Assembly (NCBI GenBank): GCA_016124905.1
Contig: WGMV01000031.1
Coordinates: forward strand, 1 to 63,779
Length of the DNA: 63,779 nt
Direction: 5' to 3'
From: a bacterium
Lineage (GTDB): Bacteria; Pseudomonadota; Alphaproteobacteria; Rickettsiales; RI-342
Shown: positions 51,382-60,237 of the stretch, piece by piece
Layout of the letters: every line of letters begins with the position of its first letter
Numbering within the stretch: position 1 is the first letter of the stretch
Notes under the pieces: model-generated
Seen by the model: the letters and a program-made list of their open reading frames with translations, nothing else
The model's database searches: none
Told to the model about the DNA's origin: nothing
Program-made: the position numbers and the translations under genes

Positions 51382-54243
51382 TTAGGCAACCCAGCTGGCT
51401 CGGTGCTCCGTCGCCCGGTGCTGAATATCGGAAAACGCACCAGCCAGATGCTCGTCCCCAAGCGAAGCAATCGCCGTATTCAGCGCCTGCGTCGGCTCGT
51501 GAAGGAACACTTCCGGTGCATTCTGTTCGTGCTTGATACGCTGCATCTGCAATGCGAGCCTGACGGATTCCAGATGCGACAGATCCTCGCAGTAACCGGC
51601 CATGAACCCCGCAATCGCCGCATGGAGGGAGCCAAGCCTGCTGCCTTCGGCTTTTGGCTGTGGCTGCTGCACGGTTTCCACACCATTGGCGGTCACCAGA
51701 ACGGCATCGCCATTCTCACGCAGCATCACGGCGGCCTGGCCGTTCCAGTGCTGCGGCATGCCGTCGCGTTGCAGCACGTTCTTGGCGAATTCCAGCTGGA
51801 TGCGTTCGATGATGGCGTCCTGCGAGGCCGGGCTGTCCACCTCCAGCTGGTATAACCGGCAAAACTGGTCGTAAGAGCCGATCACCACATTGGCGCTGGC
51901 CACCAGCCCGCGGAACAGGTTCACATCGTCATAGCCGAATTCGGCATTCACCGGCAGCGCCAGCACCAGCTCCTTCTGGTGGAAATAACGGTCCTTCAGG
52001 ATGGCGTTGGTCAGCATCACGCCATATTTCTGCGCAACCGAGGCAGGCAGATACACCAGGTCGGACTGGGCAATCCAGTCCTCCACATCGTGATAGGAAC
52101 TGTTGCGCGTGCTGCGCAGGTAATTCCACATATCCTGCTGCGCCGTGCCCGTGTAGGTCAGCACCCGCAGCGGCTCGTTGCCATCCTCAATCACATGGGA
52201 AATGGCGCTGCTTTCACCCCAGTAGCGCTTATTTTGCGGCACCAGGCGAATGTCGGCATTTTCCATGAACGCACTCAGTCGCCCGCCAATATCGTCCTTT
52301 GCACGGCTGGTGAGCAGGGTGACGTCACAGGCATCGCCCAGCATTTCCTTCAAGGTCCACATCACGGTGGAAGTGGAACCGCCGGGCGCGCCTTCGCCGC
52401 CGCCGTAATTCAGGGCCTCGTGCAGGGTTCCGTCGATCAGCCGCTTGCGCGGCAGCTCGTCATTATGGATGGCGCCGTTCAGATGCGCCAGATTATCTAT
52501 CTGGTGGAACTGGTCCCAGAACATCATGTCACAGGCGAACACGCGTTTGTGCCCCGGTATAGGCGGGCTTGGCTCAATGGCGCTGTCGCCGCCCTCGAAG
52601 CGAGACACCTCCTCCGGCGTTCTTACCCCCCGGTCGGCCCGGCCATAGGCGCGCAGCGTCATGCGGCCCACCGGCGCGCCATTCACATGCACATGGCTGA
52701 AATCCAGCGAGATCGGCACCCCGCTCATATTAAACGCCAGGAACACTTCCTGACCATCCGCCCGCCGAACGGCAGCCACCACATCCGGATGCCCGGAATC
52801 GACAAAGGTGATGTCGCCATATTGCAGGGCAGGGTTGGCCTTTCGCTCGGCGATCAAGCGACGGGTGACGTTCAGCACCGAGCTGGGGTCCGTTTCCTCC
52901 ACGGAGCGGGCGCGCGTGCGGTAGGAATCCGGTATGGGAAGATAAAGATCCGGCTCAGGGGCTGTCGAAAACCCGGCATTCCTGATCTCATCCGTGTCCT
53001 TTTGCCATGGAAAGGGAATCCGGCATCCATCCCGTGGGCGTTTTTTGTCGGACCAGTCCTTGCGCCGCCATTCGGGAATATCGTCAAATTGCGGCAGGCC
53101 CAGCTCATCGCCGTTATACAGGCAGAAGCTGCCCGGAATGAAGTGCAGCCCGATGGTCAGCACCTGTTTGATGATCTCGTCATGCAGCTCCTGCGGCGCG
53201 TGCGCCGTCAGGCGGCTCGCCATGCGGATGAAATCATGGTTGCCGAAATTGATCGTGCACCCTTCCGGCAAATGCTCCTGAAGCTGAAGCACCATGCTTT
53301 GCAGATCATAGGCGGTTGGGTATTTCCACATGGTGCCGATCGGCAGGTTGGTATAGGCCATGTGTAGCCCGGCCTTTTGATATTCGCTGGCCACGAAGAT
53401 GGAATTATTTCCACCCTCGCGCCCCGCGATGGCCTCGCCCAGCGCCTTCACCCCGTAAGCGTCGCACACTTCCTCGCGGATGCGCTTCACCAGCTCGTTG
53501 GTCTGCGGCTGGCACATGCTGTGCTGAAAATACTGGCTGCCCCAGCTGCGCCCATCGCCGTAATAACCTGGGTTATCATAAAGTTCCGGATGATAATTGG
53601 CGAAAGGGATGGCATCGATGCGCAGGTTCACACCCTTTTGCGCCCAGAATTTCATCTGCTCCAGCACATCGTTCTGCACTTCCACCCGGTTGAGGTTCAG
53701 CGCGGGCTGGGAGGTGGCGAAATGCCGCAGATAATAGGCCTGGCGCACATCGTCCCACTGCCAGGCGGATTGATCATCGAAACAGGAAAGCCAGTTGTTC
53801 GGCGGGCCGGATTGCCCCTCCGGCGGCGTCCACCACACATAATGGTCCTTGTAGCGCTCATGCTCGGGGTGGTGCGGGTCACGGCTTGCCTGAAACCACT
53901 CATGCTCGTCGGACGTATGGCACAGCACAAAATCCACGTAGATTTCAATGCCCATATCCCTGGCGGCCTGAACCAGTTCATCGAAATCGTCCATATTGCC
54001 GTATATGTCCGCCACCGCGCAATGGTCGCTCACCGCATAGCCGCCGTCGGAATTCTTCGGGTCCCGTGTGCTTGGGTAAAAGGGCGAAACCCAGATCGCA
54101 TCCACGCCCAGGCTTTTGATGTAATCCAGCTTCTCGCGAATACCTCTCAGGTCACCGGTGCCATCACTGTTGCTGTCATAAAAGGAGGATGTGTAAACAT
54201 GATAAATAACCGGATTGGCGGACGCCGCATCGACCCCACTCAT
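51382..54243 (-). CDS. GH13 alpha-glucosidase fused to a PfkB-like pseudokinase domain
   Basis: A 953-residue protein without signal peptide. Residues 10-540 are a GH13 alpha-glucosidase: region I reads DFVLCH at 104-109 (the GH13_23 group also lacks the Asn here), nucleophile D210 in NLRIDAIPF, acid/base E270 in LGEAIA and transition-state D337 in GNHDFIR. Residues about 565-910 resemble PfkB/adenosine-kinase-type sugar kinases: GGSTST (621-626), the LTYTGTAQQ region, a VVIGSYDQF segment like the family's NEDE, and GSLHAAIAGF (871-880), where the catalytic GAGD is replaced by GSLH. The second half is therefore probably non-catalytic or altered. GGGAG precedes the start. The function of the fusion is unknown; sugar sensing or substrate-binding is possible. 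Confidence 0.85.
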   Translation of the reverse strand: MSGVDAASANPVIYHVYTSSFYDSNSDGTGDLRGIREKLDYIKSLGVDAIWVSPFYPSTRDPKNSDGGYAVSDHCAVADIYGNMDDFDELVQAARDMGIEIYVDFVLCHTSDEHEWFQASRDPHHPEHERYKDHYVWWTPPEGQSGPPNNWLSCFDDQSAWQWDDVRQAYYLRHFATSQPALNLNRVEVQNDVLEQMKFWAQKGVNLRIDAIPFANYHPELYDNPGYYGDGRSWGSQYFQHSMCQPQTNELVKRIREEVCDAYGVKALGEAIAGREGGNNSIFVASEYQKAGLHMAYTNLPIGTMWKYPTAYDLQSMVLQLQEHLPEGCTINFGNHDFIRMASRLTAHAPQELHDEIIKQVLTIGLHFIPGSFCLYNGDELGLPQFDDIPEWRRKDWSDKKRPRDGCRIPFPWQKDTDEIRNAGFSTAPEPDLYLPIPDSYRTRARSVEETDPSSVLNVTRRLIAERKANPALQYGDITFVDSGHPDVVAAVRRADGQEVFLAFNMSGVPISLDFSHVHVNGAPVGRMTLRAYGRADRGVRTPEEVSRFEGGDSAIEPSPPIPGHKRVFACDMMFWDQFHQIDNLAHLNGAIHNDELPRKRLIDGTLHEALNYGGGEGAPGGSTSTVMWTLKEMLGDACDVTLLTSRAKDDIGGRLSAFMENADIRLVPQNKRYWGESSAISHVIEDGNEPLRVLTYTGTAQQDMWNYLRSTRNSSYHDVEDWIAQSDLVYLPASVAQKYGVMLTNAILKDRYFHQKELVLALPVNAEFGYDDVNLFRGLVASANVVIGSYDQFCRLYQLEVDSPASQDAIIERIQLEFAKNVLQRDGMPQHWNGQAAVMLRENGDAVLVTANGVETVQQPQPKAEGSRLGSLHAAIAGFMAGYCEDLSHLESVRLALQMQRIKHEQNAPEVFLHEPTQALNTAIASLGDEHLAGAFSDIQHRATEHRASWVA

Positions 54244-55578: not shown

Positions 55579-56292
55579 CTAGAAATCATCCAAATTAACA
55601 TCGCCCAATGCATTGCCCCATATATCCGCTTCATTGGCAACCAACACGTCCGCTGCCTGATGCTGCGAATATTTGCCCAGCTCGTTTTCCACATCCACGG
55701 CCTTCAATACCAGTTCATCCATATTATTTAAATGATAATGGGGAAATTCAACGGCAGAAAAATGCATGGGTGGCAGTCCATAATCATCAAATAACTCACC
55801 CTGGATGGAAGTATCGATCAGCCTGGGCAACTGGTCGAATGCATTCACGATTCCATCATTCAGAAAGCGGGTGTTAATGAAAAGCGTTATGCCGCATTGA
55901 CGCATTCCCTCATCCGCAAAAGAAGGCATAACGGCTACATGCACGGCTTGGCCATCGCCATTCCCTTTGAAAAGGGGCAGCAATGCATTCTCCAGGTTGG
56001 CGCGCATCGCCTGCAATTGTAAGGGGCTGAAGCTATTGATACCGGGGAAATTTTCATTATTCACGCAAACGATAATTTCGCCAAAAGCCTTGGCGTCTTC
56101 TGGTGTTGCGCCGAAATTACGGAACCCCACGCCTCCACGTCTACTATCCCCGTCGGGCTCAATATTTGCCTGAAACATCAATTGATCGGGCGAATTGGTA
56201 GGAAAATGCCCGTGCAATATCTCAAGCAATTCATTGACGCGCTCGGCATAACGGACCGCTGCGGTGAACTCTTCTTTATTATCAAAACCCAT
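55579..56292 (-). CDS. Hypothetical protein, 237 residues
   Basis: Not recognised. A soluble acidic protein with an Asp/Asn-rich C-terminus (NEADIWGNALGDVNLDDF) and several Phe/His-rich segments, without export signal. GGGGAG precedes the ATG. It pairs with the 113-residue gene five bases downstream and is divergent from valS. The base composition is more AT-rich than that of housekeeping genes in the window, which suggests recent acquisition, though this was judged by eye. Confidence 0.62.
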   Translation of the reverse strand: MGFDNKEEFTAAVRYAERVNELLEILHGHFPTNSPDQLMFQANIEPDGDSRRGGVGFRNFGATPEDAKAFGEIIVCVNNENFPGINSFSPLQLQAMRANLENALLPLFKGNGDGQAVHVAVMPSFADEGMRQCGITLFINTRFLNDGIVNAFDQLPRLIDTSIQGELFDDYGLPPMHFSAVEFPHYHLNNMDELVLKAVDVENELGKYSQHQAADVLVANEADIWGNALGDVNLDDF

Positions 56293-56378
56293 TTAAAACT
56301 CCCCGAATCCTTGCTTTTCCCATTACTTTGCGTAATGAATCGTTTTTTGAAAACCTAATTTACCCATGTGACGGAATT

Positions 56379-58988
56379 ATGAAACTCCCCGCCTACGACG
56401 CCAAACACATCGAAGCCTCCCAGGCGCAAAACTGGAACAAGGCCAACACCTACGCGTGGGATGAAAACACAACCCGGGACGAGAGCTACGTCATCGACAC
56501 CCCCCCGCCCACCGTCTCCGGCGTGCTGCACATGGGCCATATCTTCAGCTACACCCAGGCGGATTTCGTGGCGCGCTACCAGCGCATGAAAGGCAAGAAC
56601 GTCTTTTACCCCATGGGTTTCGACGATAATGGCCTCCCCACTGAGCGACTGGTGGAAAAAACCAAAAAGGTCAAAGCCCACCAGGTCATCAAGGAACAGG
56701 GCAGGGAAGCCTTCATCGCCCTGTGCCAAAGCGTGGTGGATGATTCCCTCAAGCAGTTTCGCAGCCTGTTTGAGGCCGTCGGCCTGAGCGTGGACTGGAA
56801 CCAGCAATACGACACCATCAACCCCGAGGTGGTAAAGCTCAGCCAGATGTCCTTCCTTGATCTCGTCGGCAAAGGCCATGTCGAGCGCCGCATGCAGCCC
56901 ATGCTGTGGGACCCGGTGGACCAGACCGCCATCGCCCAGGCCGAAGTGGAGGACAAGGAAGAAGCCTCCCACATGAATCACGTCACCTTCTTCATCGACG
57001 AGATCCGCAAGCCCAACAATATGCGCGAGGAAGTCACCATTGCCACCACGCGCCCGGAATTGCTGGCCGCCTGCGTCGCCGTCTTCTACCATCCGGAGGA
57101 CGAGCGCTACAAACACCTCGAAGGCAAAACCGCCGTCACCCCGCTTTTTGGCGTGAAGGTTCCCTTCCTGGCGGATGAAATGGTCCAGCCCGACAAAGGC
57201 ACCGGCCTGGTAATGTGCTGCACCTTCGGCGACGAGACCGACATCCACTGGTGGAAAACCCACAACCTGCCGATGCGTCTCGTCCTCAACAAATACGGCA
57301 AGCTCTGCAACCTGGAACATGTCGGCAAAACCCACCCTGACACCGGCGAGGCCTGGAAATCCATCACGCACGAAGTGCGCCTCAAAGGTTTTGCCGACAT
57401 GCTGAACGGCAAAAAAACCACCGATGCCCGCATGCTGATGATCGCCCAGCTGCAGGAATACGGCCTGCTGATTAAGCAGGATCCCATCACCCATTCCGTG
57501 AAAATCGCCGAGCGCAGCGGCGCCACGCTGGAACTCCTGCCCACGCCGCAATGGTTCGTAAAACTGTTGGACAAAAAAGAAGCCCTCAAGCAGCGCAACC
57601 GCGAATGCGGCTGGCATCCCACCTTCATGAGCGTCCGCATGGAGCAATGGATCGACGGCCTGAAATGGGACTGGTGCATCAGCCGCCAGCGCTTCTTCGG
57701 CGTGCCTTTCCCCGTCTGGTATTCCAAACGTCCCGGCGAGGAAGGCAAACCCATCTACGCCCACCCGGACGACCTTCCGGTCAACCCGCTCATCACGCTT
57801 CCGCGCGGTTACAAGGCCGACGAGGTGGAAGCCGACCCCGACGTGATGGACACCTGGGCCACCAGCTCCATCTCCCCGCAAATCAGCAGCAAAGGCATCA
57901 CCGATAAGCTCTGCGTCGATGCCAAGCGCCATAAAAAACTCTTCCCGGCCGATCTTCGCCCCCAGGCGCACGAGATCATCCGCACCTGGGCCTTCTACAC
58001 GCTGGTGAAAGCCCACCTGCATGAGGAGACCACCCCCTGGAAGAACCTCATGATCTCCGGCTGGTGCCTCGCCAGCGACAAAAGCAAAATGTCCAAATCA
58101 AAGGGCAACATCGTCGACCCAACCGACCTGCTGAAACAGCACGGGGCCGATGCCGTCCGCTATTGGGCCTCCACCAGCCGCCTCGGCGCGGATACGGCCT
58201 ACACCGAAGACACGGTCAAAACCGGCCGCCGCCTAGTCACCAAACTCTGGAACGCCGCGCAATTCGCCGCCATGCATTTTGAAAAAGCCGAGGATCACGC
58301 AACCCTGGCCGAGGACATCTCCCGCATCACCCACGCCACCGACCGCTGGATGCTCGGCAAGCTCTCCGAGACCATCAAGGCCGCCACCAATGCCTTTGAT
58401 GAATACGAATATGCCGATGCCCGCCAGAAGGTGGAAGATTGCTTCTGGAAGGACTGGTGCGACAATTACCTGGAACTCTGCAAGGCCCGCATCTATGCCG
58501 AGGAAGACAGCGACAACCGCAAAAGCGCGGCCCTTACGCTGCGCCACGGCACACGCCTGTTCCTGCTGCTGTTCTCGCCCTTCATCCCCTTCGTGACGGA
58601 CGAGCTTTTCAGTCATCTTTATGCGGCGGATTACCTGAAACACGGCTCCATCCACCATCGCGGCAGCTGGCCGGAGGCCTTCAACCTGGCCAGTCCCGAG
58701 CTGATCGCCGCCGGCGATGACGTGGTTGCCATGCTGGCCACCATCCGCAAGCTGAAGGCGGAAAAGAACCTCTCCGTCAAATACCCGCTCACCGCCGTTC
58801 AGGTGGAAAACCTGCCGCCGGGTATCCCGCCGCAGGCGCTGGAAGAGCTGATGGCCGACATGCTGAGCGCCGCCAACGCGCCCGGCTACACCAAAGGCAA
58901 ACCATCCGCCCAGGCATCCAGCATGCCGCTGGAGGGCAATAAGGGAACCATCGGGGTGGAGTTCGCCGCGTCAAGCGAAGCAGCGTAA
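56379..58988 (+). CDS. valS: Valyl-tRNA synthetase, archaeal-like type
   Basis: Charges tRNA-Val. The class I motifs are HMGH (51-54) and KMSKS (near residue 569). After the HIGH motif the sequence reads PMGFDDNGLPTERLVEK, where common bacterial ValRS have PGTDHAGIATQ; together with DPDVMDTWATSSISPQI and the short length (869 residues), this marks the archaeal-like ValRS known from Rickettsiales and some other alphaproteobacteria. The start MKLPAYDAKHIE at 56379 is family-like; the frame open from 56328 adds 17 unrelated residues. It is divergent from an unknown gene. The C-terminal tail after residue 800 is short. Confidence 0.94.
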   Translation: MKLPAYDAKHIEASQAQNWNKANTYAWDENTTRDESYVIDTPPPTVSGVLHMGHIFSYTQADFVARYQRMKGKNVFYPMGFDDNGLPTERLVEKTKKVKAHQVIKEQGREAFIALCQSVVDDSLKQFRSLFEAVGLSVDWNQQYDTINPEVVKLSQMSFLDLVGKGHVERRMQPMLWDPVDQTAIAQAEVEDKEEASHMNHVTFFIDEIRKPNNMREEVTIATTRPELLAACVAVFYHPEDERYKHLEGKTAVTPLFGVKVPFLADEMVQPDKGTGLVMCCTFGDETDIHWWKTHNLPMRLVLNKYGKLCNLEHVGKTHPDTGEAWKSITHEVRLKGFADMLNGKKTTDARMLMIAQLQEYGLLIKQDPITHSVKIAERSGATLELLPTPQWFVKLLDKKEALKQRNRECGWHPTFMSVRMEQWIDGLKWDWCISRQRFFGVPFPVWYSKRPGEEGKPIYAHPDDLPVNPLITLPRGYKADEVEADPDVMDTWATSSISPQISSKGITDKLCVDAKRHKKLFPADLRPQAHEIIRTWAFYTLVKAHLHEETTPWKNLMISGWCLASDKSKMSKSKGNIVDPTDLLKQHGADAVRYWASTSRLGADTAYTEDTVKTGRRLVTKLWNAAQFAAMHFEKAEDHATLAEDISRITHATDRWMLGKLSETIKAATNAFDEYEYADARQKVEDCFWKDWCDNYLELCKARIYAEEDSDNRKSAALTLRHGTRLFLLLFSPFIPFVTDELFSHLYAADYLKHGSIHHRGSWPEAFNLASPELIAAGDDVVAMLATIRKLKAEKNLSVKYPLTAVQVENLPPGIPPQALEELMADMLSAANAPGYTKGKPSAQASSMPLEGNKGTIGVEFAASSEAA

Positions 58989-59001: not shown

Positions 59002-60237
59002 TTAATTGGTTGTGCTGCCGGTAAACACCGGCACGCTCGGCGCGCCGTAAATTGTCTGGTTTGCCGTTTCATCCTGCGGGTACACATTCCCCACGCCGGA
59101 TGTCACCTCTTCTGGCAGATAGGCATTCGGGTTTTCCAGAATATTCCCATCCCTGTCGCGCAGGCGAGGGGCCTTGCGCACCGGGATCACCTGCAAACGG
59201 TCTACCTGGTCGAGCTTCTTCACACCCACATTGGGCGACACCACCGGCGTATAGGTTTCCGGATCAAGAATCTCATACCGCTCAAGCTTCTTGTCATTGT
59301 CCTTATCGCGATATTGGTAGCTGGTCACGTTGCCCAGCATGGCGCGCGGCGTGCGGTCCCGCGTGATTTGCGGGCGGAATGCGTCAATCTCGCGTTCACC
59401 GCTGAAGGCCTTGTCGCCATAGCGCACATCCGCGCTGGTGATGGGCACATCAAAGGCCTTGGTGCTTACGCGCTTTTTGGCGGCCACACCTTGCCGGATA
59501 TAGCCCAGCTTATTGACTGTGTTCGGGTCCTTATATTGATCGACAGCCTGATACTGCACCTGGCTTTTGTCAATCCGCACATTCGGCACTTCCACCAGGT
59601 CGCTGAATTCATTCTGGCGGCCTGCATTCACCTTCACCCGGCTATAGCGGGAAATGGCGCTGCGGCGGTTATTGTCGCTGAAGGGGCGGATCGTGCTGTC
59701 CACCTGCTTGTTATCCATGCGCTCATACACATTGCCCTGAAGCGCGCGGTCAAATGCATTCAGGCGCACATACTGGTCCGGGTTCTGCACTTCCAGCAGC
59801 TTGCGGTTTACACGCGTGGCGTCAAATGCGCTGACACTTGCAACCCCGCGCGGATAATCCGCCAGCCGTGGCCGGTCGGTCGCCTGTGGGCCTTTGGGTT
59901 TGATGGGCTCAACCCGGTAAGGCTTGGCTTCCACCGGCTTGGGGCCGGTATCGTGATAAGGAGAGGAAACGGCAGGGGCGGAGCCCTGCGTGTTCTCGCG
60001 GGCCTGCTGAGGCATCACCGTGCGCCCGGCCGCCCAGCGGTCAATGGTCTTTTTCCGCTGCTTGGGAGACATGTCATGCAACGCCTCCAGCGAGCCACGG
60101 TCGATATAGATACGATTGCCATATTCCTTGTAGCCGCCCTTGGGCGCATCGGGCACATCCACCATGCGGTAGGGCTCCGCCGCCAGGCAGGGGGTGGAAA
60201 TAAAAAGGGCAAGCAATAGGGCTGATACATGTTTCAT
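59002..60237 (-). CDS. Hypothetical secreted protein, 411 residues
   Basis: Not recognised. A clear signal peptide (MKHVSALLLALFISTPCLAA, cut before EPYR) sends it to the periplasm or beyond. The mature part is rich in Arg, Asp, Asn, Pro and Tyr with few hydrophobic stretches, so it may be extended or low in secondary structure; short repeated patterns such as RDRDGN, RYGDKAF and DKDNDKK occur but no true repeat. No enzyme motif. It is convergent with valS (13-base gap), and apt lies upstream on the same strand. Confidence 0.7.
   Translation of the reverse strand: MKHVSALLLALFISTPCLAAEPYRMVDVPDAPKGGYKEYGNRIYIDRGSLEALHDMSPKQRKKTIDRWAAGRTVMPQQARENTQGSAPAVSSPYHDTGPKPVEAKPYRVEPIKPKGPQATDRPRLADYPRGVASVSAFDATRVNRKLLEVQNPDQYVRLNAFDRALQGNVYERMDNKQVDSTIRPFSDNNRRSAISRYSRVKVNAGRQNEFSDLVEVPNVRIDKSQVQYQAVDQYKDPNTVNKLGYIRQGVAAKKRVSTKAFDVPITSADVRYGDKAFSGEREIDAFRPQITRDRTPRAMLGNVTSYQYRDKDNDKKLERYEILDPETYTPVVSPNVGVKKLDQVDRLQVIPVRKAPRLRDRDGNILENPNAYLPEEVTSGVGNVYPQDETANQTIYGAPSVPVFTGSTTN

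Follow-up and report, generated by a model that had tools for sequence, protein, structure and literature searches.

An archaeal-class valS as the very probable sole housekeeping valyl-tRNA synthetase gene of a high-GC member of the Rickettsiales

The window, by which we mean the whole stretch of 63,779 nucleotides that was analysed, carries a complete forward-strand reading frame for valyl-tRNA synthetase (ValRS) that begins at 56328 (TTG) or 56379 (ATG) and ends at 58988, giving a protein of 869-886 residues depending on whether the in-frame TTG at 56328 is taken as an alternative start. The gene and its two flanking frames are as follows.

55579..56292, minus strand: hypothetical protein with no Pfam match, upstream divergent neighbour of valS (frame list and Pfam search).
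56379..58988, plus strand: valS, valine--tRNA ligase, archaeal class, 869 aa (NF009687, 1036 bits; PF00133; PF08264).
59002..60237, minus strand: protein without a Pfam match, downstream convergent neighbour of valS (frame list and Pfam search).

The two flanking proteins are mere neighbours and stand outside the valS finding. The valS translation contains both strings quoted in a preliminary description of this DNA, PMGFDDNGLPTERLVEK and DPDVMDTWATSSISPQI, along with HMGH (the HIGH motif) and KMSKS, and thus carries the class motifs PMGFDDNG and DTWATSS as well as the HIGH and KMSKS signatures. Pfam searches recovered a class Ia catalytic domain (PF00133) and an anticodon-binding domain (PF08264), and the best match of solved structure was the ValRS 1GAX, no chain among the PDB matches listed being named as an archaeal or eukaryotic ValRS. 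Judged from its family, the enzyme would use its class Ia catalytic core to charge tRNA-Val with valine, and proofreading would be expected in the CP1 domain.

NCBIfam separates archaeal-class ValRS (NF009687/PRK13208) from the usual bacterial model (NF004349/PRK05729), and the window protein scored 1036 bits against the former (cut-off 738) and 528 bits against the latter, below its cut-off of 704. The pattern P-x-G-[FW]-D-x-N-G-x-x-T-E was present in all 45 ValRS examined from the order to which the window genome belongs and in 36/36 other archaeal-class sequences, and was absent from all ten bacterial-class alphaproteobacterial ValRS. Four of 14 named controls passed the NF009687 cut-off, in a set that includes four archaea and in which the passers were not matched to names. 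Bacterial-class ValRS, found in most Alphaproteobacteria and in Thermus thermophilus (1GAX), share the reaction and class Ia architecture of the window protein but have a PGTDHAGIATQ-type motif and DTWFSS in place of DTWATSS, at only ~27-30% identity. The presence of an archaeal-class ValRS at 56379-58988 is thereby confirmed as real and lies far beyond chance. The preliminary description had assigned the protein to a ValRS class known from Rickettsiales, which the NF009687 score and the order-wide motif bear out, and had stated that common alphaproteobacteria use the PGTDHAGIATQ class. Of 385 genomes drawn evenly from the Alphaproteobacteria, 16 passed NF009687, four being members of this order.

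The window genome (G000; 2.36 Mb in 47 contigs, 95% complete) contains a single valS when its contigs are searched with TIGR00422 and NF009687, the remaining matches being other class Ia enzymes: three frames read as IleRS (1111 aa, contig C36), LeuRS (876 aa, C40) and MetRS (512 aa, C28). A second, bacterial-type valS, which the preliminary description had proposed to look for, was not found in this 95%-complete assembly. An origin of the contig from a foreign organism was ruled out: over its longer piece, the CoxA encoded in the window is 82% identical to that of a genome of the same family (G001), the highest value among the genomes tested, and the contig therefore belongs to the genome. 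That the gene might be an accessory paralogue, such as an antibiotic-resistant second ValRS, is brought to mind by Streptomyces, Variovorax and Burkholderia, whose plasmids carry an archaeal-class valS that is plausibly an extra copy. We regard this as highly improbable here, however, as the window gene is the only valS detected and the idea survives only if another lies in the missing 5% of the genome, as no bacterial-type copy was found across the sampled order, and as the protein scores 819 against the alt_ValS exception model, below its cut-off of 900.

The position of the organism was addressed through marker families and a conserved protein. Matches to TIGR01045, the Rickettsia palindromic element RPE1, were found in all three tested genomes of genus f11/g12 (7, 21 and 48, respectively); the 14 other genomes tested and the 14 controls had none. 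Surface_Ag_2 is an expanded outer-membrane family of Anaplasmataceae, and genomes of family f19 encode 13-22 paralogues each. Both groups belong to the same GTDB order as G000, and this order is therefore the Rickettsiales, a name which in our analysis rests on these two marker families. SecA was used to place G000 itself because rpoB was not found in its assembly, rated 95% complete, an absence that is probably an assembly gap. In the SecA tree G000 fell within the clade of the order, which has an SH-aLRT support of 99, and branched close to the root of that clade together with its family mate G001. Basal Rickettsiales have GC contents of up to 61% and, in many cases, genomes larger than 2 Mb (PMC10847448), and deep-branching, metabolically rich families of the order have been described (PMC9352585, PMC10847448); the 56-60% GC and 2.36 Mb of G000 fit such families, and the organism is probably a high-GC, deep-branching member of the Rickettsiales.

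Within the order, 48 of 55 genomes, G000 included, passed the NF009687 cut-off. The seven that did not (G001, G004, G026, G027, G038, G048 and G052) were 58-87% complete in six cases and 99% complete in the case of G027, and no bacterial-type valS was found in any of them. G004 carries a fragment of an archaeal-class ValRS at a contig edge, and no valS was seen in G001, which is 81% complete. Neither class of valS was found in G027, probably owing to an assembly gap.

ValRS trees were built from 104 rows and then from 50 rows under a site-mixture model, in short searches with SH-aLRT as the only support and with no archaeal or eukaryotic ValRS among the rows. A long branch in the 104-row tree splits archaeal-class from bacterial-class ValRS, and the window protein together with 44 sequences of the order forms one side of a branch with a support of 97; the order sequences stay together in the site-mixture tree (SH-aLRT 93). 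Thus, in the comparison with rickettsial and other alphaproteobacterial sequences that the preliminary description had suggested, the window protein does not fall within ordinary bacterial ValRS. The window protein shares its class motifs and clade with the ValRS of Rickettsia and other Rickettsiales (NF009687/PRK13208), being mostly 46-59% identical to members of the order and 36-39% identical to three divergent ones, but differs from them in its high-GC lineage and long end branch (0.58-0.66), all sampled relatives being at most ~60% identical, and its branching position within the clade is weakly fixed. Archaeal-class ValRS of Actinomycetota, Acidobacteriota, Bdellovibrionota and Hydrogenedentota have the same class and motifs at ~40-45% identity and form a clade apart from that of the window protein (SH-aLRT 99-100). 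In a published ValRS tree Rickettsia prowazekii groups with tupanviruses, with bacteria all around (PMC11304981). 'Archaeal-like' is here a class label, since the nearest sampled relatives outside the order are bacteria.

Taken together, we consider it very likely that this is the sole, housekeeping valS of a rickettsialean that is rich in GC and probably deep-branching, the archaeal class of the gene having been inherited vertically from the ancestor of the order and the bacterial valS having been lost. The ancestor of all sampled Rickettsiales would have gained an archaeal-class valS, with the timing on the stem and the donor being our reconstruction, and the same ancestor would have lost the usual bacterial gene and passed the archaeal-class gene down vertically. 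Vertical descent is favoured because both the trees and the distribution support it, and as G000 itself belongs to the Rickettsiales an archaeal-class valS is its expected state. The preliminary description had singled out an archaeal-like ValRS in an alphaproteobacterial chromosome; the class stands, but the emphasis does not, since G000 is placed in the Rickettsiales by the RPE1 and Surface_Ag_2 content of its order and by SecA. A recent lateral gain of archaeal ValRS by one alphaproteobacterium outside the Rickettsiales has a precedent in sporadic acquisitions elsewhere in the class, where two separate archaeal-class clades exist. It is nonetheless most unlikely, given that G000 lies in an order with marker-identified Rickettsia and Anaplasmataceae, in agreement with SecA, and that its ValRS groups with those of Rickettsia and Anaplasmataceae in an order-wide distribution. 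Gain by G000 alone is ruled out by this distribution and by the trees.

Five sequences from other alphaproteobacteria are the nearest neighbours of the order clade in the 104-row tree: L137 (G329), L138 (G406), L145 (G154, with 10% contamination), L146 (G099) and L009, from a Methylocystis-labelled contig that may be misbinned. Two of these five source alphaproteobacteria have genomes of 5.5-7.4 Mb. SecA groups G099, G154, G329 and G406 with other alphaproteobacteria, outside the order, and the rpoB tree, in which rows G329 and G233 are wrong reading frames, does likewise for G406 and G154; these four genomes therefore likely owe their archaeal-class ValRS to lateral transfer or to a donor in common, and misbinning is possible for some of the five sequences. 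A second set stands apart, comprising G122 (L143), G345 (L144), G092 (L139 and L150), G225 (L142), G075, G206, G123, L017 and L018, and is nearer to ValRS of Bdellovibrionota and Myxococcota in both trees. G092 shows both ValRS classes, and two congeners of G122 have a ValRS that scores as bacterial-class, which suggests recent replacement of valS in this set. Archaeal-class ValRS thus occur in at least two separate clades of other alphaproteobacteria, suggesting repeated lateral replacement of valS. Archaeal-class valS genes were also seen on large plasmids of Streptomyces (L163), Variovorax (L164) and Burkholderia glumae (L165), and the two betaproteobacterial plasmid copies group with actinobacterial ValRS in the 104-row tree. 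Somewhat short of probable, in our judgement, is a fuller scenario with a single gain on the Rickettsiales stem, full replacement before the first known split (a synapomorphy) and onward transfer by a stem or unsampled member to unrelated alphaproteobacteria of ~5-7 Mb.

The preliminary description had further proposed that this ValRS, with the cox and pdh genes of the window, may place the organism near the origin of mitochondria. Rickettsiales have long been discussed as mitochondrial relatives, and the window does contain coxA and pdh genes, the E2 subunit scoring above the TIGR01349 (PDHac_trf_mito) cut-off. These are general alphaproteobacterial genes, however, and the CoxA of the window is about equally similar to those of ordinary alphaproteobacteria and of Rickettsia. 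The archaeal-class ValRS is common to the whole order and therefore cannot single out the lineage of G000. Eukaryotes use a bacterial-class ValRS, which would make a lineage with the archaeal class alone a poor donor. Phylogenomics of deep Rickettsiales has moreover found these clades to be unrelated to mitochondria (PMC9352585). That valS signals a position close to the mitochondrial ancestor is thus scarcely credible, and a tie between this gene and mitochondria is not supported, none having been found.

As a single gene, this valS is ordinary, being the expected housekeeping valS of Rickettsiales and offering no new clue to mitochondrial origin. As a marker, its class sets the Rickettsiales apart from almost every other alphaproteobacterium sampled. 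It does so even where, as here, the lineage is high in GC and the genome unreduced, an indication that the class switch came before genome reduction and host dependence. If the gain on the stem is true, valS class would be a synapomorphy with which claims on mitochondria or unplaced alphaproteobacteria could be tested.

Two further observations concern other genes. The presumed IleRS of G000 (C36:2095-4848; L161) is a long frame of 1111 aa, as in much of the order; the IleRS of Rickettsia is reported to be of the ileS2 type, transferred laterally into alphaproteobacteria such as Rickettsia (PMC4861432). The window also encodes, at 51382-54243 on the minus strand, a 953-aa protein in which the N-terminal stretch, residues ~10-517, is similar to enzymes of the trehalose synthase-like or alpha-glucosidase kind and is followed by a further 400 residues without an NCBIfam assignment.
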